Notes under the pieces: generated by a model
What the model was told of the DNA's origin: nothing
The model's input: only the letters and a program-made list of their open reading frames with translations
Databases searched by the model: none
Source of the DNA: Ornithodoros turicata
Taxonomy: Eukaryota > Arthropoda > Arachnida > Ixodida > Argasidae
Length of the DNA stretch: 64,000 nucleotides
Assembly: GCF_037126465.1 (NCBI RefSeq)
Contig: NC_088206.1
Location: 54,044,841 to 54,108,840, forward strand
Direction of reading: 5' to 3'
In this document: one piece after another, positions 22,207-58,221 of the stretch
Position numbering within the stretch: position 1 is the stretch's first letter
How the letters are laid out: the number at the start of each line of letters is the position of its first letter
Made by a program: the position numbers and the translations under genes

Positions 22207-23494
22207 GCTGATGCGAAGATAATGCCTCCAGTGCCAGAAGCGCTTGAACCTCGGGCAGTTGCGACGCACCAGGAAAAGCAGAGACAATGGCCTTAAGGGC
22301 AGCGAGTACCGCTGAGAAGAGTCCCAGAGGAGGCATATATTGGGGGGCTGATGAGGGTGCTGGTTCCGTCACACTGGCGTAGGTGTTTGTAATCTGTCTT
22401 GATGAACGAGGAGGCGGTGCGCTTGTGATAGGCGTAGCCGCGACTGTGTTCAGCGACCCTCGTTTACCTGGTGCAGATCGAGGGGGTAGTGCAGGAAATT
22501 CTTGTGCATTTGTACGAGACGGGAGTGTGGCACTAGCATCCCTAGGAGCGTCAGACGGAAGTCGTAGGGTTCGGTCTTGGTGCCTCTTGGTGGCGGCGGT
22601 CTTGACAGGACATAAAGAAAATGATGCGGGATGGCTGGATTTGCAGTTAGCACACTTTGGCTCTCTTTTATTGTTGCAGTCTGATATCCGGTGAGGTCCG
22701 GCGCAGATGCCACACCGTGTAGAACCTCGGCAATTTCGTGCAATATGGCCAAATCGTTGGCAGTTATAACACTGTATGGGGCCTTCTATGTACTCTTGGA
22801 CTGTGAAGGTCTGAAACCCAAGGGCAATTCGAGGAGGAAGACGGATTGTAAGTTCAAAAGTCAGGATAACGCTCCGTAACGGGGTGAACACATCACTGCC
22901 ATCTTCTGCTAGGGAATGCCGAACCTGTCGCCGTGCTGATAAAACCCCTGCGTCTTTAAGATAGAGCACGAGGTCGTCGTTCGAATACTCTCTTGGAACA
23001 TCATATATCTTGCCCATATTTCTGGCGTACGATTGGGGTATGGATGGTATCACCGGAATACCAGCTAAGCACTTAGCAGACAAAAGGTTGCGGGCGGCTG
23101 CTTCGGACCGTACGGAGACGAAGAGAGAACCATCTCGGTGGAAACGGTGGTGCATAACCTGTTGTTGGGTTAGCAGGCGTATCTCACTAGCGACCGCATT
23201 AGGATTCACCTTCCAGAAGGAGTAGTCAGTAGTTGCTGGTCGAAACAGTATGGGAATACCGCCGGCTCGGTTCTTCTTGTAGGTGACAGTGGTGAACGGG
23301 TCATGAAGTGAAGTGGTAAGGTTGCTATCGTTCATCGCATCTGTCTGCTGAGGAGCTGGCGGTGCCGAAGTGTCCATTGTGTTATCGGGAACATTCACGA
23401 TCTGTGGAATGTTGGGATCACCAGAGGAAGGGCTCCCTACCCGTTGGCGTTTGGCAGGGCTGACGGGGACCTGTTGACCTGTGGTAAGAGTCAT
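22190..23494 (-). CDS. LINE ORF1, gag-like nucleic-acid-binding protein
   Basis: Open frame of 434 codons starting MTLTTGQQVP. The C-terminal half carries three zinc knuckles: C242-C245-H250-C255, C261-C264-H268-C273 and C281-C284-H288-C295. They are followed by a Ser/Pro/Thr-rich tail. Proteins of this form coat LINE RNA and help target-primed integration. The stop overlaps the ORF2 start. It is intact, unlike ORF2. Confidence 0.85.
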   Translation of the reverse strand: MTLTTGQQVPVSPAKRQRVGSPSSGDPNIPQIVNVPDNTMDTSAPPAPQQTDAMNDSNLTTSLHDPFTTVTYKKNRAGGIPILFRPATTDYSFWKVNPNAVASEIRLLTQQQVMHHRFHRDGSLFVSVRSEAAARNLLSAKCLAGIPVIPSIPQSYARNMGKIYDVPREYSNDDLVLYLKDAGVLSARRQVRHSLAEDGSDVFTPLRSVILTFELTIRLPPRIALGFQTFTVQEYIEGPIQCYNCQRFGHIARNCRGSTRCGICAGPHRISDCNNKREPKCANCKSSHPASFSLCPVKTAATKRHQDRTLRLPSDAPRDASATLPSRTNAQEFPALPPRSAPGKRGSLNTVAATPITSAPPPRSSRQITNTYASVTEPAPSSAPQYMPPLGLFSAVLAALKAIVSAFPGASQLPEVQALLALEALSSHQHDGIV

Positions 23495-23589
23495 AGAGAC
23501 GTTGGACCTCCCGTCCAGATTACGACGGGAGGTCCGTGATGGTTCGATTTCTTTTTCAACGGCTCTGAAAAAGCCTGAAAAGTGATCTG

Positions 23590-23700
23590 AGGAATGAAAT
23601 AATGAACCCTTTCAAAATAAGGACCGAAGCCCTATGGTGTCCAAAAAGGTCAAAAGAGCTTTGATGGCAGAGCGTTAGTGGGCTTTCTTCAACAGAAGCA
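23590..23700 (-). repeat. Second LINE 3'-end fragment
   Basis: Diverged copy of the ORF2 C-terminus and early 3' UTR seen at 18480-18590 (ATGGTGTCCA, AGAGCTTTGA, GCAGAGCGTT), in the same orientation and directly upstream of the LINE 5' end. This gives a head-to-tail arrangement. Confidence 0.6.
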
Positions 23701-43132: not shown

Positions 43133-44240
43133 ATCCCAAGCAGCACACCATCATTGGTCCAGTATCGGTCCAACATTGGCAGTCAATATAAGTTACATAT
43201 GGTCCAATATTGGCCGTGCAACAGAGACCGATATTGTGCCAATAAACTGCCAATATTGGTCCAATGTTGCAAGCCCGTTGTATGCCAATGAAAAATAGGG
43301 ATGATCTGTAGCTATAGTAACTTCCATACCACCCTTGTTTTAATTGGTTTTAATATGCATCACGACGACAGGAACGCGTCATATTACAAGTCATTTTTGC
43401 TTTTGATTACTTTGTTATATTTTTGTGTAGATACTCAAACTTTGTCATCGGCGGAGCGCAGTGGTAAGATAGTAAGACAGAATCAATGGCAATGTTAACA
43501 AATTTTATGCATAACCCGCACCTGGTGTAAAAGGGAGCGTAACTCTCCTGCGACGGTGAGGGACATACGTCTTAGCAACTAACAATCGATCTGTAATTAT
43601 TCGAGGCGCTAACGTACAACAGCAGTGTTCATCCCCATCAAGAATTGTGTTTTTTATTCGAACTGCCGCCTGCACTGTCGTTATCTGCTTCGCCGCCCAT
43701 AAACCCGATTATTTTTGTGCGTGACGTGAGGCGTGTTACTCGAGTAATTTTTAGCAGCATATGGACCATACAAATCAGAACTAGTTGTTGCCATAATATT
43801 TCGTGGGACCACAAGTTATATTTTATTAATACTATTCTGGTTTTTTCACTCACATAACGCATTTTGGAAATATCATAGTACAGCCATGTTTCACCCGGGA
43901 TTACCAATAGAGTGCCAGTGAAGGTGCGTTGGTTGAAAGCTGGCTCCATTGGCACTTTGGTTTAGTGGCAAACCGATGTAACGCCAATGAAGCGCCATCT
44001 TTCATTGAGCAACCCCAGAACGTCATTATATGGGTGGCATGACCTCAAACTGCAATAACAATGGTATTCTGGTTATTTTCTAACATGGATGTTCAGTTTT
44101 GTACACTTCCGGTTTAGCAAAGATAACATCAATAGAGCTAATAAAGCGCCATTTCTTGGTTTTTCACTGGCTTGATTTGGCCTCCTTAAGCCCAATTAAA
44201 TTGGCATAGTGCCAATATTGGACCAATATTGTGAGCTGTT
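43133..44240. mobile_element. MITE-like element that hosts the Polinton (left part)
   Basis: It starts ATCCCAAGCAGCACAC. Its right end (GTGAGCTGTTTGGGAT) is the complement with few changes and is split by the Polinton: the last few bases lie at 58216-58227. It contains CCAATATTGG-type palindromes at 43150-43270 and 44205-44232. Confidence 0.6.
44235..44240. other. Polinton target-site duplication, left
   Basis: GCTGTT, repeated exactly at 58216-58221. Six bases is the duplication size typical of Polinton integrases. Confidence 0.9.
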
Positions 44241-44995
44241 AGTAGTATAGATATAGACTGTATAATTTTCGAGCGGCATAAGAACCGAGCGGCATAAGAA
44301 CCGAGCGGCACAAGAACCGAGCGCTATAACGGCCTCTTTTTTCTAATCCAAGATGGCCGATTCTAAGCCAACACAATCCAGTTCTAAGCCAACACAAGCC
44401 AAATCCAAAGCCATCTGATTGGCCACCATTAGCTCCGCCCACTTCACACGTTGATTGGCCCATGCTAAGCCTACTGATCTTTGATTGGTTGACCGTAGCT
44501 CCTTCATGCTAATTAATTGGCTCCGCTCCCACTTCACACGCTGATTGGCTCATGCTAAGCCTTGACTGAGCATTGGTTGGTTTACCGTAGCTCCACCCCT
44601 TCATGCTAATTACTTGGCTCCGCGCGCCCCCGTTGATTGGCCACCGCTACTGATCGCGCGCGCGTTGATTGGTTCACCATAGCTCCGCCCCCACCCGTTT
44701 ATGTTCATTACTTGACTCCACCCCCGGCTTCACGCTGATTGGCCGGCGCGACCGCTGATTGGTCCAGGCGCGGCTGCAGCGACCCCGCTGCGGCCCTATC
44801 TCAGATGTCCAAACTTACCCATCTGATTGGTCCATTCTAAGCCACTCTCCCAGCCCCCCCATCTGATTGGCCGCCGCCACTGCCTTCACCGGCACCCACC
44901 AGACGGCCCTATCTCAGATGTTCAAACTTATACCGATTGGCCCGCCACCAGACGGTGCGCGGCGGCGGCGGCGGCGGCTTCAGATGGTTCTAACC
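44241..44995 (+). repeat. Left terminal inverted repeat (755 bp)
   Basis: Reverse complement of 57445-58215. Outermost are three 16-bp tandem units (GCGGCATAAGAACCGA type) against four on the right. The rest carries about 13 ATTGG/CCAAT motifs, several GCTCCGCCC boxes and repeated CATGCTAA(T/G) octamer-like motifs at irregular spacing. The inner end has repeats of CTATCTCAGATGT(C/T)CAAACTT, one degenerate copy of which lies just inside the TIR at 45004. Confidence 0.95.
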
Positions 44996-45039
44996 CAATG
45001 TCTCTATCTCATACATCCAAACTTACCTCGTGCCACCAG

Positions 45040-45297
45040 ATGGCGCGACTCAGGTGCATCAACTCCACGCGGTTCCGCTTCGAGGCGTCACACGAGCGAG
45101 AGAACTTCGTCGAGATGTGCTGCCACATATTGCGCTCCCGTATCACCGCAAGCAAGTTGCGGGAAATCATACGCGAAATCTTGGACGAGTACCTGTCGGC
45201 TTACAGGGAGCAATCACTGCGCGAGCTTCAGGAACTATGTCAGGAAGAAATAAGAGTCCTGGAGACGATCATCAATCGCTCTAGGAGCTATGGATGA
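45040..45297 (+). CDS. Small Polinton protein, unknown function (85 aa)
   Basis: Charged, helical-looking protein ending with a run of Arg/Glu/Leu residues (LREIIREILDEYL, LRELQELCQEEIR), likely a coiled coil. An in-frame ATG at 44998, only two bases inside the TIR edge, would add 14 residues, and the open frame continues back into the TIR, so the start is uncertain. AATAAA follows the stop at once (45299-45304), so its mRNA may end before the ATPase gene. It matches no family that I recognise. Confidence 0.6.
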   Translation: MARLRCINSTRFRFEASHERENFVEMCCHILRSRITASKLREIIREILDEYLSAYREQSLRELQELCQEEIRVLETIINRSRSYG

Positions 45298-45348
45298 AAA
45301 TAAAGATGCATCACACCTCGGTACACAGTCTGCTCGAGTTATTCCACG

Positions 45349-45966
45349 ATGCGCATGCAGTTCCAGCACCCTGCTCGAATTCTCATCTCCGGCGCGTCCA
45401 TGTGTGGGAAGACGGTGCTCACGCAGAATATAATGAGACATCCCGAATTATTTAGCATTCCACCACAGAAGATACTCTACGTACGAAAGTATGCAGCCAG
45501 CTGGGAAAAGGATTTCGACGGTGTGGAGTTTATGGACAGGATACCCGCAGATTGGGATGAGCGATACCCCACTCTCATAGTTATTGACGATCAAATCACG
45601 GAAAAGGGGGTTCTATCGGAGGTAGAGTCGCTGTTTGTACGTGGTAGCCATCATAAGAATGCGTCCGTGATCCTGATCACACAAGCCTTGTTCTATCACA
45701 ATGCCGCTTTTCGAACGATATCGCTGAACGCCAGTTATATCGTATTGTTCCGGAACGCGCGGTCCGTACAACAGATCGAAACCTTCGGACGTCAGGTATT
45801 CGGGAAACAGGGGCTCTCCTATTTTCTCGATGCATATAACCAGGCGACGGAGAAGGCGCACGGTTATTTAGTTGTGGATCTGCACGCGCAAACACCTCCC
45901 TCTCGTAGCCTGCGAACGGGTATTTTACCGCACGACCGGCAGTTCCTGTTTACGCCCGCGAAATGA
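45349..45966 (+). CDS. DNA-packaging ATPase (FtsK/HerA, A32-like)
   Basis: 205 aa. Walker A is GASMCGKT (residues 15-22). Walker B is LIVIDD (76-81). Then comes the family block RGSHHKN with a downstream ITQ sensor (Q112). Such ATPases pump genomic DNA into the capsid in Polintons, adintoviruses and poxvirus-like relatives. The length is typical for Polintons. The stop overlaps the next start as ATGA. Confidence 0.93.
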   Translation: MRMQFQHPARILISGASMCGKTVLTQNIMRHPELFSIPPQKILYVRKYAASWEKDFDGVEFMDRIPADWDERYPTLIVIDDQITEKGVLSEVESLFVRGSHHKNASVILITQALFYHNAAFRTISLNASYIVLFRNARSVQQIETFGRQVFGKQGLSYFLDAYNQATEKAHGYLVVDLHAQTPPSRSLRTGILPHDRQFLFTPAK

Positions 45967-46337
45967 CGGCCGATCTTAGAAGACATCTCACGCTCCTCAA
46001 AGTATTGGCCGCCAGCAAACCGACGCACCGCGCAGAGTTACTTAAAGAGCTCAGCTGCGACGACATTCGAATCCTTTCGGAAATCTGTCTGAACATTCTA
46101 CGCGGAAATATCCCACTTTCGACGGAACTTCATAAAAACCTGAAGAAACACAAAAAAATCCTCCGCTTCCTCGCCTACAAGTCACTTCATAAGTGCCCCC
46201 GGCAGTTGAAGAAATATATTAGGGGACAACGAGGTGGTCTCATTCCCATACTTCCACTGCTCCTCTCAGGGCTATCAAGTCTCGTGGCGGGAGTCGCCGG
46301 GCGAGCGATATCCAAAGCCATCGGTCATGGCTCATAG
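45963..46337 (+). CDS. Small virion-type protein with hydrophobic tail (124 aa)
   Basis: The N-terminal two thirds is helical and rich in Leu/Lys (LLKVLAASKP, LKKHKKILRFL). The C-terminus after QRGGLIPILPLLL is Gly/Leu/Ala-rich (LSSLVAGVAGRAISKA), an amphipathic or membrane-active pattern. Small proteins with a basic middle and a GG-hydrophobic tail recur in Polintons and adintoviruses and are suspected capsid cement or membrane-lytic factors. That role is inference. It overlaps the ATPase by 4 nt and the next gene by 11 nt. Confidence 0.7.
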   Translation: MTADLRRHLTLLKVLAASKPTHRAELLKELSCDDIRILSEICLNILRGNIPLSTELHKNLKKHKKILRFLAYKSLHKCPRQLKKYIRGQRGGLIPILPLLLSGLSSLVAGVAGRAISKAIGHGS

Positions 46338-46782
46338 AATAGAAATAGGTGAAGTTCTGAAATCTAACGATTCGGACGATGTAAAAGTGGGCAAAATACT
46401 AGAAGCCCTCTATTACTTGCTGAAGCGAGCTCACTATCATCCTCCTCCTCCTCCTCCTCCTCCTCCTCTGGAACCTGTCCATTCGGTGCCCGAACCGGAA
46501 CCCAATCCATTCGATTTTAATCTTCTACCCTCCGGCGTTGATAAAGCACGCGCGAAATCTGTGCTGAAAGAATTGAAGAAAGTATTCACCTGGCAGGCGG
46601 ATAATGTGCTAGTATATAGAGGGAAGCGAATCAATCGCTCAAACATTGTGGCTCTCGTGAGCTACTTAGCACGTCGTAGCGCGCTCATCAAGAAACCCCG
46701 CTGGTACAAAAAAGTATCGAAAATTATAAGCGCTCTGAAAATACACCGCATTGCTCGCTGGAGCAAATATGGGGCCCTATAG
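46327..46782 (+). CDS. Conserved Polinton-type protein with poly-Pro linker (151 aa)
   Basis: ATG 46327 (MAHRIEIGEV) was chosen because it overlaps the upstream stop by 11 nt, as at neighbouring junctions. The protein has an N-terminal helical part, a run of nine prolines (CCT repeats at about 46440-46467), then a folded segment NLLPSGVDKARAKSVLKEL ... GKRINRSNIVALVSYL. I have the impression of similar segments in other Polintons, but the function is unknown to me. A role in virion assembly is suggested only by position. Confidence 0.7.
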   Translation: MAHRIEIGEVLKSNDSDDVKVGKILEALYYLLKRAHYHPPPPPPPPPLEPVHSVPEPEPNPFDFNLLPSGVDKARAKSVLKELKKVFTWQADNVLVYRGKRINRSNIVALVSYLARRSALIKKPRWYKKVSKIISALKIHRIARWSKYGAL

Positions 46783-47794
46783 AAAGATCAAGGAGAAAGG
46801 GTTAGGTGGAGTGGATCGGTACCGACGTTATCACAAGCTCACGCACGCAGAAGCCGTGGAACAGCTGAAAAAAGAAGATGCTTACACCCTTCACAAGCCA
46901 GTGAAGAAAAAATTTAAGCGGCGCTCCATCATCGCAACTCACGTGCGGGATTTATATCAGGCAGACCTTCTGGATATGCGCAAATATCAGAAATTTAACA
47001 AGGGCTTCAGGTACATCCTAACGGTCATAGATACGCTATCGAGGTACCTGTACATGGTCCCCATTCGCACAAAGCGCCCGCAAGACGTAAAGAAAGCCTT
47101 CCAACGAGTTTTCCGTCACGGAATTCCGAAGAATTTGCTCACGGATCGCGGGAGCGAATTTTGGGGTTCCCCAGTTCGTCAGTACTTTCAGTCGCTGCTA
47201 AATCACTATAGCACACAAAGCGGAATGAAAGCGGCCTCCTGTGAACGCGTGCAGAGAACAATTAGGGAAAGAATAGCCAGGCATTTCACTAGTACGGGGA
47301 AGTTTAATTATATCAACGCGCTGCCGAAGATAGTGGCCGACTATAACGACTCGGTACACTCTGTCACGGGCGAAAAGCCGAAAAACGTGAACGCCGGAAA
47401 TGAAGTAGCTCTGTTCAACAGATTGAATCGTAAGACGACCCCGCGCGAGAGCAAGTATAAATCAGGGGACCAGGTGCGGCTCGCGTTAGACCGCGGCGTG
47501 TTCGCCAAAGGCTACGATCAAAGGTGGACGGCCGAAGTGTTCGAGGTGTCGCGAACGAGAAAGACCGATCCGCCCGTAGTGTACGTGAAAGATTCGACGG
47601 GAAAAGAAATACTGGGATCATTCTACGAGCAGGAGCTGCAGCCAGTCCACCATCTTTCCTCGTACGATAAGCGACTCATATCCGCGGTGATTAGAAAGAA
47701 GAAAATTAATGGGGTATTGCACTACTTGGTTCGTTGGTTCGGATACGCCAAAGATCACGATTCTTGGGTGCCCGCCGACGATGTCAGAAAATGA
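46769..47794 (+). CDS. Polinton integrase, rve core plus chromodomain
   Basis: 341 aa from ATG 46769. Retroviral-type DDE core: D66 (QADLLDM), D126 (LLTDRGSEF), E159 (KAASCERVQRT). After a basic SH3-like segment (KSGDQVRLAL) it ends in a chromodomain-like fold (LISAVIRKKKINGVLHYLVRW ... WVPADDV, about 302-341, here in pieces) that could steer integration to marked chromatin. No N-terminal HHCC zinc finger is visible; the first 50 residues hold DAYTLHKPV before the core. It inserts the element and creates the 6-bp duplication. It overlaps both neighbours by 14 nt. Confidence 0.95.
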   Translation: MGPYRKIKEKGLGGVDRYRRYHKLTHAEAVEQLKKEDAYTLHKPVKKKFKRRSIIATHVRDLYQADLLDMRKYQKFNKGFRYILTVIDTLSRYLYMVPIRTKRPQDVKKAFQRVFRHGIPKNLLTDRGSEFWGSPVRQYFQSLLNHYSTQSGMKAASCERVQRTIRERIARHFTSTGKFNYINALPKIVADYNDSVHSVTGEKPKNVNAGNEVALFNRLNRKTTPRESKYKSGDQVRLALDRGVFAKGYDQRWTAEVFEVSRTRKTDPPVVYVKDSTGKEILGSFYEQELQPVHHLSSYDKRLISAVIRKKKINGVLHYLVRWFGYAKDHDSWVPADDVRK

Positions 47795-49058
47795 ATTTTA
47801 CGTGTATCTGCTCTCGAACGCCAGCATGGACCTGTACCCGTCCAACACGTTGAATGACTTCACGATCGCGTTAGATAAGCCGCTACACCTGGATGATTCG
47901 TACGTCGTCGGTCTAGAGGGATTTTCCATTCCCAACAGCTTCCTGAACGTGAACCAAGCGCCTGATAACCTGATAACGCTATCAACGGAGAAGTGGCAAA
48001 CGAAACAGCTCACGTTCGAAGACACGGACACGCTACTGAATAAAATATTCCCCGAATATGGGATAGAGTGGACTTACGAGGAAGATCACTACGTGTTTAA
48101 GCTACCGTCGCGCGTGCGCTCGGCGAAACTAATCGACAGACCGCTGCATCTCGCCTTTGGAATCGTCGACATCGATGGAGATCACCGGGAGGGCGGTAAA
48201 GTACGCGCCGTCCCAAACGTGTTACCGCTCGCGGAGGAAAGAGCCGTTATGATGCGAGTTCGCCGGGTGATAGTGATCAATAACGATCTAATTTTAGAAC
48301 CCCGATCGCTCATTACCGACACATTCAACGAATTCTTCAGAGCGACGAACGATACAGAATCACGGGTGGAATACAAAGACAACACTTACTCGCTTTCTCT
48401 CCCGACGAATTTCAACTTGTCGACCGAGTTCCTGGACCTCATTCAGGTGAAGCACATCCACGTTGAAGGATCCCGAAAGCACATCACGTGTAATCCCATA
48501 GTGAAGACGTACCGCATCCACATAAACACTCGAGAGACGGAAAGTCGGCGCATTTCACTTCCACCGAATTACTACGAAACACCCGAAGCTCTCGTGAGCG
48601 CCATCCATGAGCGTCTGCAGCCGGAGGCTTCCCTCATGTACGATGCATGGGCGAGGAAGTGTTCGTTGAGCTTGCGGGAAAACGTGTCGCTTACATTATC
48701 CGATTACTTTGCGTACCTACTGGGTTTCGGCGCGAAAACCGTATTTACGGAAAACGATACGGGCGTCGACGAAGTGACCATAGATCTTCCCATTAACTGT
48801 ATTATGATATACACGGATCTCGTCACGCCCTCCGTAGTGGGAAACGGGCGGCATCCGATACTGAAATTAATTCCATTCGTATACGATAGAACGAAAGAAC
48901 AACTGAGTTTCAGCTTTCTACCCGTTCAGTATTTTAAGTTAGTGCAGCGCGAAATTTCCTCAATCACCGTCTCCATACGCGACGACACCGGTCGCAAGCT
49001 ACCGCTACAAAATCGCGGTAGATCGACGCTGACGCTGCACTTTAAGCATGTACACTAA
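47781..49058 (+). CDS. Minor capsid (penton-like) protein
   Basis: 425 aa from ATG 47781. The N-terminus EFYVYLLSNASMDLYPSNT, followed by FTIALDKPLHLDDSYVVGLE, is the hallmark opening of the Polinton minor (penton-type) capsid protein, expected to form the five-fold vertices. The rest is beta-rich without notable motifs. The length is in the range for the family. It overlaps the integrase by 14 nt and the next gene by 11 nt. The assignment as penton rather than another capsid component is from memory of the family. Confidence 0.85.
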   Translation: MSENEFYVYLLSNASMDLYPSNTLNDFTIALDKPLHLDDSYVVGLEGFSIPNSFLNVNQAPDNLITLSTEKWQTKQLTFEDTDTLLNKIFPEYGIEWTYEEDHYVFKLPSRVRSAKLIDRPLHLAFGIVDIDGDHREGGKVRAVPNVLPLAEERAVMMRVRRVIVINNDLILEPRSLITDTFNEFFRATNDTESRVEYKDNTYSLSLPTNFNLSTEFLDLIQVKHIHVEGSRKHITCNPIVKTYRIHINTRETESRRISLPPNYYETPEALVSAIHERLQPEASLMYDAWARKCSLSLRENVSLTLSDYFAYLLGFGAKTVFTENDTGVDEVTIDLPINCIMIYTDLVTPSVVGNGRHPILKLIPFVYDRTKEQLSFSFLPVQYFKLVQREISSITVSIRDDTGRKLPLQNRGRSTLTLHFKHVH

Positions 49059-49392
49059 AGCGGTACCAATCTACGGATTTGGCGTTCCGACGGTATACAG
49101 GTCGCACCTGTACCAGAGGGGAGGCAATTTCTTTTCTCAGCTCGGGCGTTTCGCTATTCCACTCTTTAAACGCGTATCGCCCTACTTAAAAAAGACGGCT
49201 GTTGCGGCCGCTAAGCGCGTGGCCAAAAATCTGTCGGAGGGAGACTCTTTCCGAAGTGCGCTTAAAAGATCGGCGAAAGATACGGGCCGTGAAATTCTCC
49301 GCGACCTCGGAGGGGCTGGCGGGCGAAGAAAGAGGAGAAAACCGGACGTCTTCGACGGCATAAATCACGCTGGTTGCGCGGCCACAATTTAG
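49048..49392 (+). CDS. Basic core/PX-like virion protein (114 aa)
   Basis: Starts MYTKAVPIYGFGVP, has YQRGGNFFSQLGRFAIPLF, then a Lys/Arg/Ala-rich helix (KKTAVAAAKRVAKNL) and a basic tail GGRRKRRK. This order is typical of the small PX-like/DNA-core candidate proteins next to Polinton capsid genes. It could coat DNA or help membrane escape; this is inference. The major capsid gene starts 7 nt after the stop. Confidence 0.75.
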   Translation: MYTKAVPIYGFGVPTVYRSHLYQRGGNFFSQLGRFAIPLFKRVSPYLKKTAVAAAKRVAKNLSEGDSFRSALKRSAKDTGREILRDLGGAGGRRKRRKPDVFDGINHAGCAATI

Positions 49393-49399
49393 TTGCGAG

Positions 49400-50695
49400 A
49401 TGGACACGATTAACGTCGTACATCCCGACACTCCTCTGTTGGATAAGTCGGAAACACAGTTATTTTCCGTGCCGGGAACGCAGTGGCATATACTGAAGGG
49501 GGAATATGAGGTATTCTACCCGGTCGCTGACATATCCTCCGTCATAGAGTTCCAGCTTTCGAATTTGGGGCACCACTATCTCGATTTGAACTCCGCGTAC
49601 ATAGTGACGAAAGTCCGCATCGTACGTGACGATGGTTCGCTACCGGAAACACAGGCTGGCGATCGGACGACCTACGACGAGGTCTACCCCGTCAACGCGT
49701 TCGCCAGCACGCTTTTCAAGAACGTAGCCGTCTTCTTGAATCAGACCATGATTGCGAATAATGATTTGTATAGCTATAGAAGCTACTTGGATATTTTGCT
49801 TCACGCCAGCACCACGGAGCAAAATACCGTGCATAAAGCAGGTCTGTACACGCAAGAAGAAGCGCGTCAAACGGAAAACAACATTCGCGCTCGTGGACCG
49901 GCCGAACGATACAACCTCACACGTGGCGGCAAGACCATCGACCTGGTTTCCAAGATCAACTCGGACATTTTCCTGCAGCCTAAGCTACTCATATCGGGAG
50001 TGGAAATTAGGCTTGTTTTTTATCAAGGCTCCGACGCGTTCCGCATTATGAAGACCGATCAGGAGCAGCACACGCATAGAGTGGAAATCATGAGTGCCAC
50101 CTTGTACATAAAGAAAATCACCGTGTCTCCCAGCCTATTCCTCGGACACGAAACGGAATTGCAGAAGCGCAAGGCTCTCTACACACTTGCCGGAAGTGAA
50201 TCGCGTATTCGTTCGCTACCAGTTGGCAACCTGGATGCATGCCTGGAAGATTTATTTCCTGAGAAGATACCGTCTAAGGTGGTGGTCGCATTCGTGCCCA
50301 CCCTAGCCTACCAGGGAGCATTCAATCGGGACCCGTACCGATTCGTGAACTGCGACATTGAGTCGGCGACGCTCACCGTGAACGGGACGCAGCGAATAGA
50401 CACGTTCGACTTCAGCAATAACCTGAACCACCGAAGCTACTTCAACCTCCTGGAGCAGCTGTGTGAGAAGCACGTCTCCTACGAATACGACCACTACGTT
50501 GGAAACAAGTTCCTACTGTACTACGACCTGGATCCCGATCAATCCTCCGTCCACCTGTCACCGATCAGGCGTGGAAACGTTCGTCTGCAGCTCAAGTTCC
50601 GACGTGCCTTGGCCGAACCCACGACCGTATTGATACTGTCCGAGAGTGTGCGAATTATGTCCATCGATAAGAACAGGAACGTCACACTGGATTAG
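49400..50695 (+). CDS. Major capsid protein (double jelly-roll, hexon-like)
   Basis: 431 aa. Features of the Polinton major capsid family: SSVIEFQLSNLGHHYLDLNS near the N-terminus, YPVNAFASTLFKNVAVFLN, SYRSYLDILL, VDL-type SKINSDIFLQPKLLISGVE, KKITVSPSLFLGHE, and the C-terminal VRLQLKFRRAL ... IMSIDKNRNV. These proteins form trimeric capsomers of an icosahedral shell. The frame is complete. The protease starts 2 nt after its stop. Confidence 0.92.
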   Translation: MDTINVVHPDTPLLDKSETQLFSVPGTQWHILKGEYEVFYPVADISSVIEFQLSNLGHHYLDLNSAYIVTKVRIVRDDGSLPETQAGDRTTYDEVYPVNAFASTLFKNVAVFLNQTMIANNDLYSYRSYLDILLHASTTEQNTVHKAGLYTQEEARQTENNIRARGPAERYNLTRGGKTIDLVSKINSDIFLQPKLLISGVEIRLVFYQGSDAFRIMKTDQEQHTHRVEIMSATLYIKKITVSPSLFLGHETELQKRKALYTLAGSESRIRSLPVGNLDACLEDLFPEKIPSKVVVAFVPTLAYQGAFNRDPYRFVNCDIESATLTVNGTQRIDTFDFSNNLNHRSYFNLLEQLCEKHVSYEYDHYVGNKFLLYYDLDPDQSSVHLSPIRRGNVRLQLKFRRALAEPTTVLILSESVRIMSIDKNRNVTLD

Positions 50696-50697
50696 CA

Positions 50698-51132
50698 ATG
50701 TTCGAGCAAGATATCGAGAGACTCCTGAAGTACAACGATTACACTTCGGCACTCTTCCGCGGTGTATACGCTCGAGACGATCGTCTGCCCGCACTGGATA
50801 GACCGGGTATAATCGTGGTGAACACCGATCGGCGACAGCAAGCTGGGGAGCACTGGATTTTGTACGCGAAAATGAAGGATGACCTCATCTACTTTGATTC
50901 CTTCGGATTGCCGCCCATCGAACCCGAGCTGAAACGCCTCACCGTCGACGAATATAATGATGTCTGTATCCAAAGCCTGTATTCTCCAATGTGTGGTGTG
51001 TACTGTTGTATCGCGGCGACATTGTTGGCGAAAGGGAAATCACTGAAGAGCATTGTATCCCTGTTTTCCGATAATCTCGCCGCTAATGACCTAAAATCAA
51101 TAAAGCTGCTAGAAAAGTTGTTTGTCGCTTAA
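50698..51132 (+). CDS. Adenain-like maturation cysteine protease
   Basis: 144 aa. Catalytic set in the adenovirus-protease order: H52 (GEHW), D67 (YFDSFG), Q92 (IQSLYSP), C99 (PMCGVYC). It would process capsid precursors during maturation. It lies last in the forward structural cluster. A polyadenylation signal AATAAA (51099-51104) lies within the final codons, about 25 nt before the stop. Confidence 0.93.
   Translation: MFEQDIERLLKYNDYTSALFRGVYARDDRLPALDRPGIIVVNTDRRQQAGEHWILYAKMKDDLIYFDSFGLPPIEPELKRLTVDEYNDVCIQSLYSPMCGVYCCIAATLLAKGKSLKSIVSLFSDNLAANDLKSIKLLEKLFVA
51099..51104 (+). terminator. AATAAA near the end of the forward late cluster
   Basis: Inside the protease frame, 26 nt before its stop. 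Cleavage 15-30 nt downstream would fall at or just after the stop and end the structural transcripts. The opposite-strand gene has its own AATAAA at about 51203-51198. Confidence 0.5.
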
Positions 51133-51215
51133 AAACGCCTGGCGTCCTTTATTCTCCCCCACGCGAACGCATAGAACACACTGTTTTTTACCGTCGTGTT
51201 TTATTAACTTTTTGT

Positions 51216-51458
51216 TTACATGGCGCGTCGCTGGCCTCGACCAGCGACGGCAAATGGTTGCTGTTGGTCGTTCGTTTGCGGCGTGATAGACAGCAACCCA
51301 CGTCCGCGACCCCTTCCGCGCTGCTCTTCAAAATAGCTAGGTGGAGGCGGTTGTGGTTCACTATAGGGAGGTGGTAATGGAGCCTCCTGGCCTCCCACCA
51401 CAAGAACACGGATATGCGACCCTTCCGGCAAACGGTGACCACAGGTTGGGCATTGCAT
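51216..51458 (-). CDS. Small Cys-motif/proline-rich protein A (80 aa)
   Basis: Starts MQCPTCGHRLPEGSHIRVLVVG, where a CPTC knuckle and a short beta-like block lead into a tail with PPPY (late-domain type, a binding site for Nedd4-family WW domains) and RGRGRGRG. It is paralogous to the gene at 51919 over the first 22 residues. Upstream, an apparent 55-nt intron (51513-51459, GTGAGT...TTTCAG) ends exactly before the ATG, so the start could be the first ATG of the spliced mRNA. Two genes of this type lie back to front with the structural cluster and may be early or regulatory. The function is unknown. Confidence 0.75.
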   Translation of the reverse strand: MQCPTCGHRLPEGSHIRVLVVGGQEAPLPPPYSEPQPPPPSYFEEQRGRGRGRGLLSITPQTNDQQQPFAVAGRGQRRAM

Positions 51459-51513
51459 CTGAAATATGCGCGCAAGTCTATAGCTATTGGAGTGAAAATA
51501 AGTTGGTACTCAC
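51459..51513 (-). other. 5' UTR intron of protein A gene (55 nt)
   Basis: Donor GTGAGT at 51513-51508, acceptor TTTCAG at 51464-51459, directly before the ATG. Confidence 0.6.
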
Positions 51514-51599
51514 TGTTGCTCTTTCGGTGGTGAGACTGCGGCGGGTAACGCGAACCACCCCCACCGAGTATAAAGATTTACAACTTCGCGAGGGGAATT

Positions 51600-51918
51600 T
51601 TCTTTTTTCTTCTTTTTCTTCCGGATAAAGCGCGTCGTTTCACTTAGCGTGAACCCCTCCTCAACAGACAACTACGATTTATAGGCATTGGCTGGAAGCG
51701 TTTATTAAGCGGTAGATGATAGCGCGAAAGAAAAAAAAAAAAAAAAAAAACATACATGGCTTCGAAGCGGTGCTCCTCATATGCGGCGTGAGCAAAGCTG
51801 TTGGCTGTGATGGCACTCAGTAGAACAAAGAGGAAGGCGTAGAAGCGATGTTATGACCGGTCTATAGTCCAGCTATGGTTGAGCACAGAAGAAGAAGGTA
51901 GCACGTGCACTTGATGGC
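51600..51918. other. Gap between the two reverse genes
   Basis: It contains a run of about 20 As (51729-51750) and a minus-strand AATAAA (about 51708-51703) that could terminate protein B. No frame that I trust. Confidence 0.5.
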
Positions 51919-52113
51919 TCACCTGTCGGGCGGTGTTGGTGGCAGCATCGGCGAGAGCGCATTCAAATCAATGCATATATATTCCGGCTCCGGCGAGGGC
52001 TGCAGTGGTGGCTGTGGTGGTGGTGATGTTGCGTCCCGTACCTTAGGTCCGATGACCAAAACGCGGAAGTGCGATCCTTCCGGTAAAGGCCGAGAGCAGG
52101 TTGGACAGTTCAT
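51919..52113 (-). CDS. Small Cys-motif/proline-rich protein B (64 aa)
   Basis: MNCPTCSRPLPEGSHFRVLVIG is nearly the same as the start of protein A. The tail is PPPQPPLQPSPEPEY ... PPTPPD, without PPxY. A 61-nt intron (52174-52114, GTAAGT...TTTCAG) ends right before the ATG. The upstream exon stays open in frame through the junction (QTEI then MNC), so a longer N-terminus cannot be excluded. The conserved head and divergent tails suggest duplication followed by specialisation. Confidence 0.7.
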   Translation of the reverse strand: MNCPTCSRPLPEGSHFRVLVIGPKVRDATSPPPQPPLQPSPEPEYICIDLNALSPMLPPTPPDR

Positions 52114-52174
52114 CTGAAACACGTGAAAAAAAAGCTATACCCATTGAATGACGTGTAATCTATTCAGTACTTAC
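52114..52174 (-). other. Intron before protein B start (61 nt)
   Basis: Donor GTAAGT at 52174-52169, acceptor TTTCAG at 52119-52114. Confidence 0.65.
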
Positions 52175-52475
52175 GATTTCAGTCTGGGGTGGTTGCAATC
52201 GGGTGAGCAGTGGATGAGGTCTGGGCTCACGAGATCGTTTTTGTAGGCAACCCCTCCTTTCCACGCTCGCGCAACCTTGTTTCGTCTGAATGCGCAAACT
52301 TGTTTTGAACACGCTGAACGCACAAAGTTCGTGATGGTTGTTTATGTGGTGCCGTGATATAAAAATGTGGATCGTCTGCCGGCCTTCTAGGTTTTGAAAC
52401 CGAAATCTGTTTACACCGTCTTGACAACATTTTCTGCGACTGAGCTCGCCACGGAGTTTGGTCGTGAAGTACGTT

Positions 52476-53175
52476 TTGATATTGGACAGGTGGCCCCATG
52501 GCGACCCAGTTCCTCGGAGAAACCTTGAAATATTTTTTTTTTCGCTTGGGTCCGATGCGCGAGCGCGCGCGAAGGACATTTGGAAACTGCATAAGCGAAC
52601 CCTTTTGTTTTTGGCGCTTGTTTCGGCAATGAGCGGGTGGGCTCGTAGGGATATTTTCCTTCAGATAGACTTGTCTCATCAAGCACAACAGTTTACTTTT
52701 GGTTTTAATACGTGTGGCCTCGGAAAACATGATTTACGAGGTGACCCAGTTTCTCGTTACATCACCTTGACGCAACATTTTTTTCACTAGGGCCCGCCAC
52801 GATGGGTGGAAGTGCGTTTTTTATATTAAACAGATGGCACCGTCGTGTTGGGGCTTGTCTCAAGGTGACCCAATTTCTCGTTACATTACCTTGACGCAAC
52901 TTCCCCGAGAATAAAACAAAGCTCACCATTCTATAGTATAAACTCATTTCGGCCATGAAGCGCATTTTGATATAAAACAGGCGACCTCAACGTGTTGGAA
53001 CATGCAACCGACTCAAGGTGACCCAATTTCTCGGAGAAGACCTATTTACATTACCTTGACGCAACATTTTCTTCGACGGTGAATGCTCACCATTGCGGCC
53101 GCGCGCGCGCGTTCTGATATTAAACAGATGGCCCCCAACGCGGCCTCATCCTCGAGGTGCCACATGATTTACGAT
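52476..53175. repeat. Degenerate repeats in the divergent control region
   Basis: Two interleaved motifs recur. GGTGACCCA(A/G)TTTCTCG appears near 52498 (mutated), 52740, 52862 and 53017. In the last two it is followed by ACCTTGACGCAAC, so TCAAGGT and ACCTTGA form an inverted pair. GATATTAAACAGATGGC appears at about 52476, 52824, 52969 and 53116; the last three are 145-147 bp apart. There is no coding capacity. The block lies between the reverse pair and PolB. Confidence 0.8.
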
Positions 53176-53227
53176 CGCGTGGAAACAAGCGAGCCCCGAC
53201 GTGTTGGCGCATGTAGCGTGGATGCCT

Positions 53228-53236
53228 GTTTATAAG
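53228..53236 (+). promoter_or_regulatory. TATA box of PolB
   Basis: TTTATAAG, about 50 nt upstream of the spliced start codon. It gives a short 5' UTR. Confidence 0.65.
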
Positions 53237-53285
53237 CCGCGCGATCGCCTCAGGGGGGGAACAGTCTGCTTTCACTCGCTTCACA

Positions 53286-56200
53286 AGTAAGTTATTCCCT
53301 CCTTTACTTGTTGCACGTTTCTTACTGATGCGCGTTTATTTTCAGTGCCTCGGTGTGTGTTCTGCTTTTTTGATCCTCACGATATCGAGGATGAATCGGA
53401 CGACGACGACGATTCTCGGGACGGCGCACCTCCTACACTGTCTGCTCACGTGATGCGATCGCACCCCGACGTGGATACATCCTTCCTGCCCTTCTTCCAG
53501 ACTGACGCCGCATTTAGAGGTATCGTCAAAAGATTCACGCTATTGGCATCTGTTCACGATCAGGGAGTAGAGGATTTGCGACAATATTTAATGAGTCACT
53601 TTCACGATATGCTCGCCATATTGAGAGCGCAAAGAATACCCTTTAGGTTTTGCATTTGTTCCGATGTTTTAATGGTGAGGGAAACTCGGGGGGAGATAAC
53701 CGCGCACATAGCCCACTTTATGGCGTTTGCTCGCGAAGTCCACAGCGATGGAGCCGTCGCGAATACCCTAATGGACGCGATTCAGGAGTCCACGGGACGC
53801 GTAGAAAATTATCAGCGGGAAGGGAGCGGGTTCGTGTCCACCGACGTCCAAAAGGTTCAAATATGCATTTCCGCGGTGAAAACTAAAAAATTCGGATGCA
53901 AAGGGGCACTTCCCGATCATTTGGCTAAACGCAGGAACGTGCTGACGAATATTCATTTACCAGCACATAAGGAGGGTGAGTGTTTTAAATACAATACGCT
54001 TGCCCTCCTGCACCCGCAGGAAAGTAATTCGTGGAAAAAATGTGAAAACTATGCCGCGGAGTACTGGTGGCCTAGTCGCTTCCCCGTTTCCTACTCTAAT
54101 CTGGACGAATTCGAAGATAAAAACAAGATATCCGTGTACGTATACGAGTACGTCGATCAGGGAGTGCACGTGTCGCGATCCCCAAAACTCGAGTATGAAA
54201 AGAAAATTCACTTATTGGCTGTAGATGAACATTTTTTCGGAATCAAGTCTCTCGAGCGCTTACTGATGAGAGACAACAGGCGTTTCGTATGCGAGCGTTG
54301 CACGCGCTCTTTTAACAAGGAAGAGAGCATGGCGAAACATCGTCGCCTGTGCGCGGACGTAAACGAAATCATATTGGAATTTTGCGAACCGGGCAAAAAC
54401 TTTGTAGAGTTTACTAAAATACAGTACAAGCAGCAGTACAACTACGTCGTCGCGTTGGACACGGAGAGCGTACTCGCGCCCAGTGGTGTTGGCATGCAGC
54501 GTCACGTCACCTCGAGCTTTTGTGCCGTGCTCGTACGCACCCACGACTCGAAGGTGATGCGCATCAGGACGCACCACGGTGAAGATTCTGCGAGGCAGTG
54601 CGTCAGAGCTTTGATGGAAATGCGGGACGAGATGATCGCCCTGAACGCCTGCCCCGCGGAAATGGTGCTGAATGATGAGCAACGAGCGCGGCACAGAGCT
54701 GCCACCCACTGCGCGTACTGCGGGCGGGAGTTCGCGCAAGATGTATCCCGTGTCCGGCACCACGACCATTCCAAGCGTTGTACTGCCGGCGAGACAAATT
54801 ACATCGCGACGCTGTGCAACCCCTGTAACGTAGCGTGCACGACGCGGGAAAAACTGCCCATCATGGTGCACAATCTGGCCTACGATTTGGCCGGACTACT
54901 GCGGGAATTTCACCTTCTCGGGTGGAAGCGAGCTCCCTTCATCGTGGCCAGTTCCATGGAAAAAATCCGATCGTTCGAAATTGGCACCTTCCTATTCAGA
55001 GATACCATGCAGTACCTAAATTCGTCGCTGGGAGAGCTCGTGGAAACCGTCAAATCCATGGGGGGCGCAGAGGCGTTCCAATGCCTGAAGCAGGTATTTG
55101 GAGACGACTACGAAATTTTGCTTCGTAAAGGTGTATTCCCGTACAGCCACGTTAGCTCGTTCGCGGTCTATGACGAATTGGCTCTGCCGGCAAAATCCGC
55201 CTTCCGAAACGATCTGACGGGGGAGGATATAAGCGACGAAGACTATCAGTACGCGCTGCACGTATTTGAACGTTTTGGATGCTCGAATCTGAGGGATTAT
55301 AATGCATTGTACCTGAAAACGGATGCCCTGTTACATGCTGACGTAATGCAGCACTTCCGGCGCCTGTGCTACGACGCGCGCGGATTGGAATTGCTTCATT
55401 GTGTTTCGCTGGCATCCTATTCGTGGCAATGCGCTCTAAATTACACGCGGGCAAAATTGGAGCTGATCATCGCCGAGGACATGTACCGGACCATCGAATC
55501 GGGTGTTAGAGGTGGACTCTGTCAGGCGAGCAGGCGTCATTTACGGGCTAACAACCCGCTGTGCAGTGGCTACGATCCCGATAAAGAGGAGGTGTACATA
55601 TCGTACATAGATTGCAACAATCTTTACGGATTCAGTATGATAAAGCACCTCCCCGTCGGCGATTTCGAATGGGTCGAGGATTTTAGCTCCGTGGATTTTA
55701 TGCGTCATCCCACAGATTCGGATGTGGGATACGTGTACGTGTGCGATTTGGAGTATCCAAAATCTATCCACGCGCTGACGCGGTACTTCCCCCTGGCTCC
55801 TGAGAAGGCGGTCGTCCCGAAGGAATGGCTCTCACCATTCCAGCGAGGGCTCCTCGAAGAGTTAATGTATCAGCCGGCGAACAGCAAAAAACTGCTGCTC
55901 ACGTGCAAGGACAAGGTCGAGTACGTTGTTCATTACGCGCTGCTCGCACTCTATTGTAGACTGGGCATGCGGGTGACAAAAATTCACAGAATTCTAAAAT
56001 TTCGTCAGGCACCATTCCTGCGTCCCTACATTGAGGACAATGTTGCCAGACGCGTCGCATCGAGCACGACGTTCGAGAAAAATTTCTATAAAATCTCAAA
56101 TAATGCGGTCTTCGGGCGTACGTTGCTAAATAAATTTAATATGCGAGACATTCGAGTAGCCTTCGATGAGGAGACGGCGAGTCGCCTCGGGAGTCAGGCG

Positions 56201-56881
56201 GAATGCGCGCGAATGGAAATTTTGTCCCCCGATTGTGTCATGTTCGAAATGCGCAAGAGAAAAGTGCGATGCGATTTCCCCCTGCAGATTGGCTTCACGA
56301 TTTTAGAACTGAGTAAGTTAACCATGTACTCGTTCTATTATGAAACCCTGCTGAGCAAGCTCACTTGTCCGGTGATTACCTGCTACTTTGACACGGATTC
56401 TCTGATCCTCGGCCTATTCTGCAAGGACTACGAAGATCAGTTACGCGCGATCGCCGACGACCATTTAGACTTGTCTTCCTTCGATCGTGATCATCCACTG
56501 TATAGCGAGAGGAATCGCGGTAGACTTGGCGCGTTCAAAAGTGAAACGGGTAGCGTACCCATCGAGGAAGTAATATGCCTGAAAGCCAAAATGTACTCCA
56601 TCAAATTAGCCGGGGGAAAACAAATTGCAAGAGCTAAAGGGGTCAAAAAGAACATTGTGCGCAAACACCTCCTCCATGACACGTACCGCGATACCCTATT
56701 CAAGCACGACAGCGTATCGCACGAACAGGTGTCAATAGTGGGAAAGAAACAGTGCATGTACACCGTCAGAAATGTGAAGAGAAGTCTGATGGCGTACGAC
56801 GACAAACGATATCTCTACAATGACGTGGACTCCTACCCGTACGGAAGTTGCGAATATGGTAAGCTCGAGTGGATGACGTAG
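53286..56881 (+). CDS. Protein-primed DNA polymerase B
   Basis: 1178 aa. The open frame has no ATG at its beginning. Removing a 59-nt intron (53287-53345, GTAAGT...TTTTCAG) joins an A at 53286 to TG at 53346 and makes ATG CCT CGG. Domains: N-terminal C4/C7/H35/H40 finger; second finger C316-C319-H332-C336; exonuclease I D372/E374 (LDTES); an HNH-like zinc segment C456-C459...C491-C494; Exo II VHNLAYD (508-514); Exo III Y656/D660; polymerase motif A YIDCNNLYG (D756), motif B KISNNAVFG (916-924), motif C YFDTDS (1014-1019), then KAKMYS. All catalytic positions are kept. It copies the linear genome from a protein primer. Confidence 0.95.
53287..53345 (+). other. Intron splitting the PolB start codon
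   Basis: GTAAGT donor at 53287-53292, a pyrimidine-rich tract, and TTATTTTCAG acceptor. The join gives CACAATGCC with A at -3. Confidence 0.75.
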
Positions 56882-56978
56882 ATAGCGGGATTTCACACGG
56901 CATTCTTTCCCCCGCCGCCGCACAGATAATGCGGTGGATGAGTAGGAGTAGCGTCATTTGACCTGCGTCACTGGAAGG

Positions 56979-57395
56979 ATGTGGTACCTCGTTCTCTTCT
57001 CGCTCGTCTCGTGCGCACTGGCGTTGGATGCCGGCAACTGTACGGCGAGCATCAAGCTGGAGAAGGATAAGCACACGTACGCGCACGAATGCCCCGGCGA
57101 CATCTTGGCCATCAGAGAGTGGCACGTGGTACCTATGCGGTCCGGCATTAACCTGGACAGGAACGCTACTGGATCGTTGCGTACGTGCCTTCACTCGCTG
57201 GACGTGAGCGACAGCTACGAAGATATCCAGTGCACGCGGAAGTGCCAACTCACGGAGGACGAAATTTTTCTCAGCCGCTGTCCCGGAGACGTCTACATGA
57301 TCCGTCACTTCCGTGGAACCATGCCCAGCATCAAGGGAATCAACCTCTCCAAAACTGCCATGCTTTTCCTCAAACATGTACTCAATAAACGTTGA
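56979..57395 (+). CDS. Secreted two-module cysteine protein (138 aa)
   Basis: The start MWYLVLFSLVSCALALDAGNC is a clear signal peptide with likely cleavage after ALA. The mature part holds two related modules, ECPGDILAIRE ... GINLDRNATG and RCPGDVYMIRH ... GINLSKTAM, each with CPGD(I/V)xxIR and P-x3-GINL. There are about eight cysteines, fitting disulphides in a secreted or ER protein, and one N-glycosylation sequon (NCT) and another (NAT). I recognise no family. It lies between PolB and the right TIR. AATAAA at 57384-57389 overlaps its last codons. It is an accessory gene, perhaps captured from a host. Confidence 0.8.
   Translation: MWYLVLFSLVSCALALDAGNCTASIKLEKDKHTYAHECPGDILAIREWHVVPMRSGINLDRNATGSLRTCLHSLDVSDSYEDIQCTRKCQLTEDEIFLSRCPGDVYMIRHFRGTMPSIKGINLSKTAMLFLKHVLNKR
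57384..57389 (+). terminator. AATAAA at the end of the PolB/secreted-protein unit
   Basis: It lies within the last codons before the stop at 57393-57395. No other AATAAA follows PolB, so both genes may share it. Confidence 0.5.
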
Positions 57396-57444
57396 AAGGT
57401 ATTTTTTTCCCTGTCTGTTCGATCTCATAGAGCTATCTGAGATA

Positions 57445-58215
57445 GGTTAGAACCATCTGAAGCCGCCGCCGCCGCCGCCGCGCACCGTCTGGTGGCGGGC
57501 CAATCGGTATAAGTTTGAACATCTGAGATAGGGCCGTCTGGTGGGTGCCGGTGAAGGCAGTGGCGGCGGCCAATCAGATGGGGGGGCTGGGAGAGTGGCT
57601 TAGAATGGACCAATCAGATGGGTAAGTTTGGACATCTGAGATAGGGCCGCAGCGGGGTCGCTGCAGCCGCGCCTGGACCAATCAGCGGTCGCGCCGGCCA
57701 ATCAGCGTGAAGCCGGGGGTGGAGTCAAGTAATGAACATAAACGGGTGGGGGCGGAGCTATGGTGAACCAATCAACGCGCGCGCGATCAGTAGCGGTGGC
57801 CAATCAACGGGGGCGCGCGGAGCCAAGTAATTAGCATGAAGGGGTGGAGCTACGGCAAACCAATCAATGCTCAGTCAAGGCTTAGCATGAGCCAATCAGC
57901 GTGTGAAGTGGGGGCGGAGCCAATTAATTAGCATGAAGGAGCTACGGTCAACCAATCAAAGATCAGTAGGCTTAGCATGGGCCAATCAACGTGTGAAGTG
58001 GGCGGAGCTAATGGCGGCCAATCAGATGGCTTTGGATTTGGCTTGTGTTGGCTTAGAACTGGATTGTGTTGGCTTAGAATCGGCCATCTTGGATTAGAAA
58101 AAAGAGGCCGTTATAGCGCTCGGTTCTTGTGCCGCTCGGTTCTTATGCCGCTCGGTTCTTATGCCGCTCGGTTCTTATGCCGCTCGAAAATTATACAGTC
58201 TATATCTATACTACT
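57445..58215 (-). repeat. Right terminal inverted repeat (771 bp)
   Basis: Reverse complement of 44241-44995 with one extra 16-bp unit (four instead of three) and at least two substitutions. Confidence 0.95.
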
Positions 58216-58221
58216 GCTGTT
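58216..58221. other. Polinton target-site duplication, right
   Basis: GCTGTT, matching 44235-44240. The following TGGGAT completes the terminus of the host MITE. Confidence 0.9.

Follow-up and report, generated by a model that had tools for sequence, protein, structure and literature searches.

How does a 14-kb element with its own polymerase, integrase and capsid genes come to sit in the genome of a soft tick, and does it spread as a virus or as a bare transposon? This question is raised by a 64,000-nucleotide stretch of the Ornithodoros turicata genome (assembly GCF_037126465.1, contig NC_088206.1, positions 54,044,841 to 54,108,840, forward strand; hereafter the window), in which a Polinton occupies positions 44241..58215. 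We consider it probable that this is a young, coding-complete insertion belonging to a large, recently active O. turicata family, and that the family has spread mainly by capsid-dependent cycles. By analogy with known Polintons, the family B DNA polymerase (PolB) would copy the linear element from its ends. In line with known Polinton biology, the integrase would cut the target with a 6-bp stagger to insert the element, whose DNA would be packaged by the ATPase, protease, major capsid protein (MCP) and penton. Particles re-entering germ cells, rather than bare transposition, would account for most of the spread. PolB, together with two small genes (m1 and m2) in one type of copy, would be expressed through nuclear splicing of a leader intron, the late genes would act as one packed unit, and an accessory cassette would be exchanged between copies through recombination. 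Many young copies, recently selected capsid genes and predicted splice junctions in the genome of an animal vector provide concrete marks by which activity could be checked.

Structure of the element

The left end of the element reads AGTAGTATAG... and the right end is the reverse complement of that sequence. The ends and the late genes are as follows.

44235..44240: left target site duplication, GCTGTT
44241..44995, plus strand: left terminal inverted repeat (TIR), 755 bp, with 16-bp tandem units
45349..45966, plus strand: packaging-type ATPase with Walker A and B motifs; weak family match (AAA_14, 18.3 bits against a cut-off of 27)
45963..46337, plus strand: small late open reading frame (ORF), 124 aa, with a hydrophobic glycine-rich C-terminus and an ATGA overlap with the ATPase stop
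46327..46782, plus strand: small late ORF, 151 aa, with a polyproline run
46769..47794, plus strand: integrase (INT), rve core and C-terminal chromodomain
47781..49058, plus strand: penton (vertex) protein (PEN)
49048..49392, plus strand: small basic late protein pX, 114 aa
49400..50695, plus strand: double jelly-roll MCP, 431 aa
50698..51132, plus strand: adenain-type cysteine protease (PRO), weak Peptidase_C5 match, H52/D67/C99
57445..58215, minus strand: right TIR, 771 bp
58216..58221: right target site duplication, GCTGTT

The two ends share an inverted match of 726 nt at 99% identity, about 12 kb apart, which cannot be due to chance. The TIRs differ by one 16-bp unit plus four substitutions. 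Both ends read AGTAGT, and Polinton termini characteristically start with 5'-AG. At the flanks of the window element the target duplication extends over no more than 6 bp. Five of eight Polinton features are present, namely the 6-bp target duplication, long terminal inverted repeats, a retroviral-type integrase and, in predicted models, a double jelly-roll MCP and a single jelly-roll minor capsid protein (the penton). For the remaining three, a protein-priming PolB, the ATPase and the protease, the window proteins show the motifs and miss the family cut-offs. The original prediction, made from the letters alone, had described a Polinton in a tick-type genome, with a 6-bp duplication, TIRs of 755 and 771 bp differing mainly by one 16-bp unit, and open frames for PolB, integrase, ATPase, protease and both capsid proteins. 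All of this is borne out: the genome is that of O. turicata, and the frames and their catalytic motifs are located.

The 16-bp units within the TIRs number about 3.4 copies at 44270-44323 and about 4.4 at 58117-58186. We dropped TIR divergence as an insertion clock because at least one of the four substitutions, at 44425, is also present in a second copy, L031, within its left TIR, so that the divergence does not date the insertion cleanly.

A large family of young copies

From 7234 first-look candidates in the O. turicata genome, at least 117 integrase matches were scored, at 89-100% identity. Stops occur in 31 of these, and 76 span residues 1-347 stop-free, although these may contain small indels. 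Every third match was taken, giving 39 copies, all picked through their integrase, which were compared over the stretch from integrase to protease; the window copy lies outside the 39 and was added as an extra row in the selection and divergence counts. The sampled integrase genes are 92.2-99.8% identical to that of the window, and two of the copies, L051 and L053, stem from duplication of a single locus on contig C40 (99.9% identity over 3.1 kb).

The window copy itself has four private changes in 4380 late-gene sites (0.09%), and the nearest sampled copy differs from it at nine of these sites. Among 20 copies examined for their ends, window included, both ends came into view in four, one end in nine and neither in seven, the last two figures being misses rather than negatives; fixed-size pieces lose features when copy lengths differ. 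Each of the four copies that show both ends has a 6-bp duplication of its own: GCTGTT (the window), CACGTA, GAAGTG and TGCACC. The insertion had been called recent, and the private changes agree. Copies with other target duplications, proposed as a check, do occur, and the 76 stop-free integrase matches run counter to the case in which only decayed copies would exist elsewhere.

Selection on the virion genes

We compared two classes of variants on the premise that most of those confined to a single copy arose after insertion, and that most of those found in two or more copies were transmitted. Counts of nonsynonymous and synonymous changes (N and S) were scaled to a neutral expectation that keeps the three-base context of each mutation. 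The integrase of one copy (L087) and all genes at less than 95% cover were left out beforehand. Relative N/S is given below for private variants, for those in 2-4 copies and for those in at least 5, with the Fisher p for private versus shared; numbers of sequences include the window.

INT, 39 sequences: 0.91, 0.38 and 0.12; p 9e-9
PEN, 30 sequences: 1.03, 0.32 and 0.30; p 9e-6
pX, 29 sequences: 0.64, 0.18 and 0.00 (3 variants only); p 0.008
MCP, 28 sequences: 0.90, 0.19 and 0.43; p 2e-6
PRO, 28 sequences: 0.79, 0.52 and 0.14; p 0.03

When PEN, pX, MCP and PRO are pooled, private variants stand at 410 N to 204 S against 43 N to 94 S for shared ones (p 5e-14); the shared variants of pX alone are 2 N and 13 S. 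Pairwise dN/dS is 0.13-0.34 for pairs less than 1.5% apart and climbs to 0.28-0.55 in the class of greatest distance, to which MCP contributes just one pair. From the contrast between private and shared variants, selection was acting on the virion genes as the family spread. Because shared variants are depleted of amino acid changes in the capsid genes, and private ones lie close to neutrality in the larger genes, we infer that a capsid-dependent cycle is the likeliest route of spread. To judge from these sequences, selection on the capsid genes supports a past use of virions.

A cassette that differs between copies

Downstream of the protease, near-identical copies part company. The accessory stretch was compared in 16 of the 39 copies, chosen among those with late genes. 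The window carries these features there:

51157..52562, no strand: exchangeable cassette, type A; left edge at 51156/51157 in all 13 non-A copies
51216..51458, minus strand: small ORF m1, 80 aa, with an N-terminal CPTC motif, PPPY and PPSY
51919..52113, minus strand: small ORF m2, 64 aa

Three of the 16 copies (type A) match the cassette DNA of the window at 97.9-99.4%. Seven (type B) give no blastn match for about 768 nt, after which homology resumes at 52563, at 95.5-97.9%; six (type C) have about 850 nt in common with type B at 90-94% and then diverge. In all 13 copies of types B and C, homology to the window ends at the same base, 51156, which is 24 nt past the protease gene. Where type A carries m1 and m2, cassettes B and C have a 111-aa minus-strand ORF, open in three of four copies examined and interrupted by an early stop in the fourth, for which no family match rises above cut-off.

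The five late genes of the 16 copies are 96.8-100% identical to those of the window (98.2-100% in the seven of type B). PolB was compared in pieces from three copies each of types B and C. Two type B copies match the window at 99.2-99.5% and the third at 96.4%, falling to 85% near 54400-54600. In all three type C copies, identity is 90-94% as far as about 54400 and 97-100% from there on. Near-identical late genes, set beside cassettes and PolB genes of varying identity, indicate that the late genes have been combined with different early regions. On a tree of the late genes the A, B and C labels need at least four changes, with 10 of 14 inner forks open; a single clade of all type B copies is rejected (p-AU 0.0002), and single clades of A (0.166) and C (0.057) are not. 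From this sequence pattern, copies appear to swap the accessory cassette by recombination. A single genome thus holds elements that are nearly identical yet differ in the genes they carry, a difference that a repeat library built from consensus sequences would mask.

Exchange need not have taken place in replicating element DNA. Gene conversion or unequal exchange among integrated germ-line copies could also build mosaics; it requires no virus cycle, many copies lie inside one genome, and contig C40 does show a locus duplication. Yet the cassettes lack any blastn match over roughly 0.77-1.4 kb, homology stops at one and the same position in every one of the 13 copies, and the labels change repeatedly on a tree that rejects the B clade, if not A or C, and in which most forks are weak. 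We regard gene conversion or unequal exchange as somewhat unlikely.

Matches to the m1 region number at least 42 genome-wide, with 40 of 71 candidates scored. Five of them, window included, share the top score; they lie on four contigs and are 100% identical over 385 bp. The 72 nt around the starts of m1 and m2 are 74% identical. PPxY motifs are ubiquitin-ligase and viral budding signals, and PPPY and PPSY in m1 are odd for a virus type expected to be envelope-free. Between the cassette and PolB, at 52497-53065, lie short direct repeats (a 38-nt family and its relatives), partly present in type B, which are possibly control or origin-like repeats.

Virion cycle or intracellular transposon

A purely intracellular transposon, moved by integrase and PolB while the capsid genes ride along or act only inside the cell, would also leave many copies within one genome. 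It would be at ease with the loss of capsid genes: MCP is not within the compared stretch in 11 of the 39 copies, where homology breaks inside the penton or the next small gene, and at least three of these 11 are internal deletions. Shared variants of PEN, MCP, pX and PRO, however, are about as depleted of amino acid changes as those of the integrase. No expanded capsid-less lineage is seen among the broken copies compared, a small sample: the three internal deletions have junctions that all differ, L051 and L053 are one locus, and another pair, L079 and L081, break at different points. An intracellular element is therefore unlikely, and capsid-dependent spread is the reading that we retain.

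The penton homology of L051, L053, L075 and L076 breaks near 48092-48100, and the sequences beyond differ, save for L051 and L053. A common amplified insertion at this point was considered and discarded, as the only match there is that single locus duplication. In a comparison of eight non-element stretches, L079 and L081 share 0.7 kb beyond their breaks at 93%, which is probably another repeat.

Start of the polymerase gene

PolB and the predicted leader introns are placed as follows.

51459..51513, minus strand: predicted m1 leader intron, 55 nt; its acceptor cag adjoins the ATG
52114..52174, minus strand: predicted m2 leader intron, 61 nt; its acceptor cag adjoins the ATG
53287..53345, plus strand: predicted PolB leader intron, 59 nt, GTAAGT...TTTTCAG; joining of the exons gives A|TG
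53346..56881, plus strand: PolB, about 1178 aa, with exonuclease and polymerase motifs and relatives

The PolB frame is open from stop to stop over 53291-56881 and has a zinc-finger-like N-terminal region and a Cys/His-rich insert. Its exonuclease motifs read DTE, NLAYD and YLKTD, and its polymerase motifs DCNNLYG, KISNNAVFG and YFDTDS. Relatives within O. turicata are 91% and 47-48% identical; the latter, P0020, passes PF03175, and the window PolB does not. A Pfam search with the element proteins (E up to 0.1) turned up no OTU family, the N-terminus of PolB not being modelled.

The conserved start of PolB reads GTG rather than ATG. TTTTCAG stands directly before the second base of this GTG, and a GTAAGT donor, preceded by an A, lies 59 nt upstream, so that the start codon itself is predicted to be formed by splicing. 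Donor, acceptor and preceding A are kept in all 11 copies read (the window plus four and six others). The four come from 20 sampled copies, the other 16 of which are misses from fixed-size pieces and not negatives. Over 51133-53500 the leader-intron pattern occurs three times, against at most two in 1000 shuffles, for a pattern that was defined only after being seen. PolB, and in type A also m1 and m2, would then depend on the nucleus for splicing out a leader intron of 55-61 nt. Inspection by eye found no clear splice acceptor directly upstream of the late-gene ATGs.

Alternatively, the start of PolB might be damaged in the window copy, which would then not be coding-complete; the first in-frame ATG, at 53453, does lie 36 codons inside the conserved frame. 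But donor, acceptor and the missing ATG are constant in 11 of 11 copies, including some merely 90-94% identical there, and a RefSeq relative has its initial M at exactly this residue, which makes a broken start very unlikely, and we set it aside. The earlier description of the element as undamaged holds only if PolB, whose frame has GTG at its start, is spliced as proposed.

Weighing the evidence

That the family is old and silent, with a window copy that merely looks fresh and young copies produced by segmental duplication or assembly error, is extremely improbable, for all that L051 and L053 are such a duplication and 31 integrase matches hold stops, given target duplications that differ from site to site, the five perfect m1-region matches on four contigs and the low private divergence of the window copy.

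Several points weigh against a young, virion-borne family. All five late genes are open in just 9 of the 28 fully covered copies (at least 95%, window included). Four integrase stop variants are common to 2-4 copies, so that some defective copies were duplicated or have recurrent changes in common, and the L051/L053 duplication makes some private integrase changes appear shared. The post hoc definition of the leader-intron pattern counts here too, as does the m1 donor, which is altered in one of the three type A copies besides the window. The mosaics do not cleanly separate gene conversion from recombination of replicating DNA. The ATPase and protease assignments fall under the family cut-offs, and PolB itself misses PF03175. 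Finally, purifying selection speaks of a past need for the proteins and not of present activity, the copies were picked through their integrase, and the selection contrast covers INT, PEN, pX, MCP and PRO.

As the original prediction proposed, the element may still be mobile or form virions. More tentatively, and with somewhat less than even confidence, the family could be seen as an endogenous DNA virus still circulating in the O. turicata germ line as a recombining population. Its particles would carry one conserved late block, an early cassette of at least three types would be exchanged, and the polymerase would be gated by host splicing through a start codon formed at the exon junction.

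Products of the late genes

The integrase matches rve (PF00665, E 1.4e-8, 35.3 bits against a cut-off of 32.6) and, at its C-terminus, a chromodomain (PF00385, E 4.8e-7, 30 bits against 25.1), and NCBIfam, PHROGs and PDB sequence searches gave transposase-type and chromodomain matches. The same searches with the remaining element proteins returned only weak matches or none. In the protease, Peptidase_C5 stays below its cut-off (E 0.001, 19.3 bits against 21.3) and the adenain structure 1avp is matched weakly (E 0.012). The ATPase, putatively of FtsK/HerA packaging type, has Walker A (GASMCGKT) and Walker B (LIVIDD) with AAA_14 below cut-off, and matches no PDB sequence. D66/D126/E159 of the integrase and H52/D67/C99 of the protease (numbered from the ATG), like the ATPase and PolB motif residues, are located, and we take them to be catalytic. 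In a comparison of MCP with a viral structure library, the best-ranked protein came from a Cotesia bracovirus (24% identity, but a TM of just 0.38), and one from a MELD virus came fifth. By its composition pX may be core-like.

The eight genes at 45349-51132 are tightly packed with overlaps, including one ATGA stop-start, in an animal genome. An O. turicata RefSeq model, P0005 (LOC135398663), joins the start of the 151-aa ORF and much of MCP to a part matching PF02014, a Reeler domain; the model is either an artefact or reflects a fusion between the element and a host gene.

Relation to known elements and viruses

Vertebrate Mavericks/Polintons, as portrayed in parts of PMC8097293, share TIRs, 6-bp duplications, PolB, integrase, a putative ATPase and protease and major and minor capsid genes with the tick element, and likewise have intact copies within one genome. 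The intact vertebrate elements described there have eight intronless ORFs, or seven in Xenopus tropicalis, whereas the tick PolB has a predicted leader intron; the cassette swapped among near-identical copies and the chelicerate host also set the tick element apart. The same paper (Barreat and Katzourakis 2021) reads purifying selection on the virion genes of cyprinid fish Mavericks as particle formation and reinfection, and its abstract states that no Maverick particles had been observed as of 2021. The tick argument is alike in kind, made within one genome.

Adintoviruses, or Eupolintoviridae (PMC11071296, in part; renaming in PMC12451622, in part), resemble the tick element in PolB, an rve integrase with a C-terminal chromodomain, which the tick integrase also has, a hexon-type capsid, penton and a putative adenain-like protease. 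Their definition, as worded in a portion of PMC11071296, includes an OTU-like N-terminal domain of PolB and a hexon reciprocally recognisable by BLASTp, and we leave the adintovirus label open. According to sections of PMC10675110, nine hard-tick genomes hold 453 adintoviral loci, all integrase-derived and all in Ixodes. Integrase-bearing elements of this order are thus present in tick genomes, and the present case differs from that survey in that O. turicata is a soft tick whose copies are whole, young and equipped with capsid genes.

Scans of viral contigs with the integrase, PolB and P0020 found no relatives. Among the papers listed, no published description of this O. turicata family was found by title or abstract opening, in a search outside of which most subscription journals lie. 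Mavirus and Sputnik are alike in the folds of major capsid and penton (predicted models). These virophages have protist hosts, and the tick element shows no evidence of dependence on a giant virus.

Elsewhere in the window

On the minus strand at 18516-23611 lies what its sequence features suggest to be the remnant of a non-LTR retrotransposon, with a zinc-knuckle ORF1, endonuclease, reverse transcriptase and RNase H. Its parts are spread over separate or overlapping frames, and it is apparently broken.

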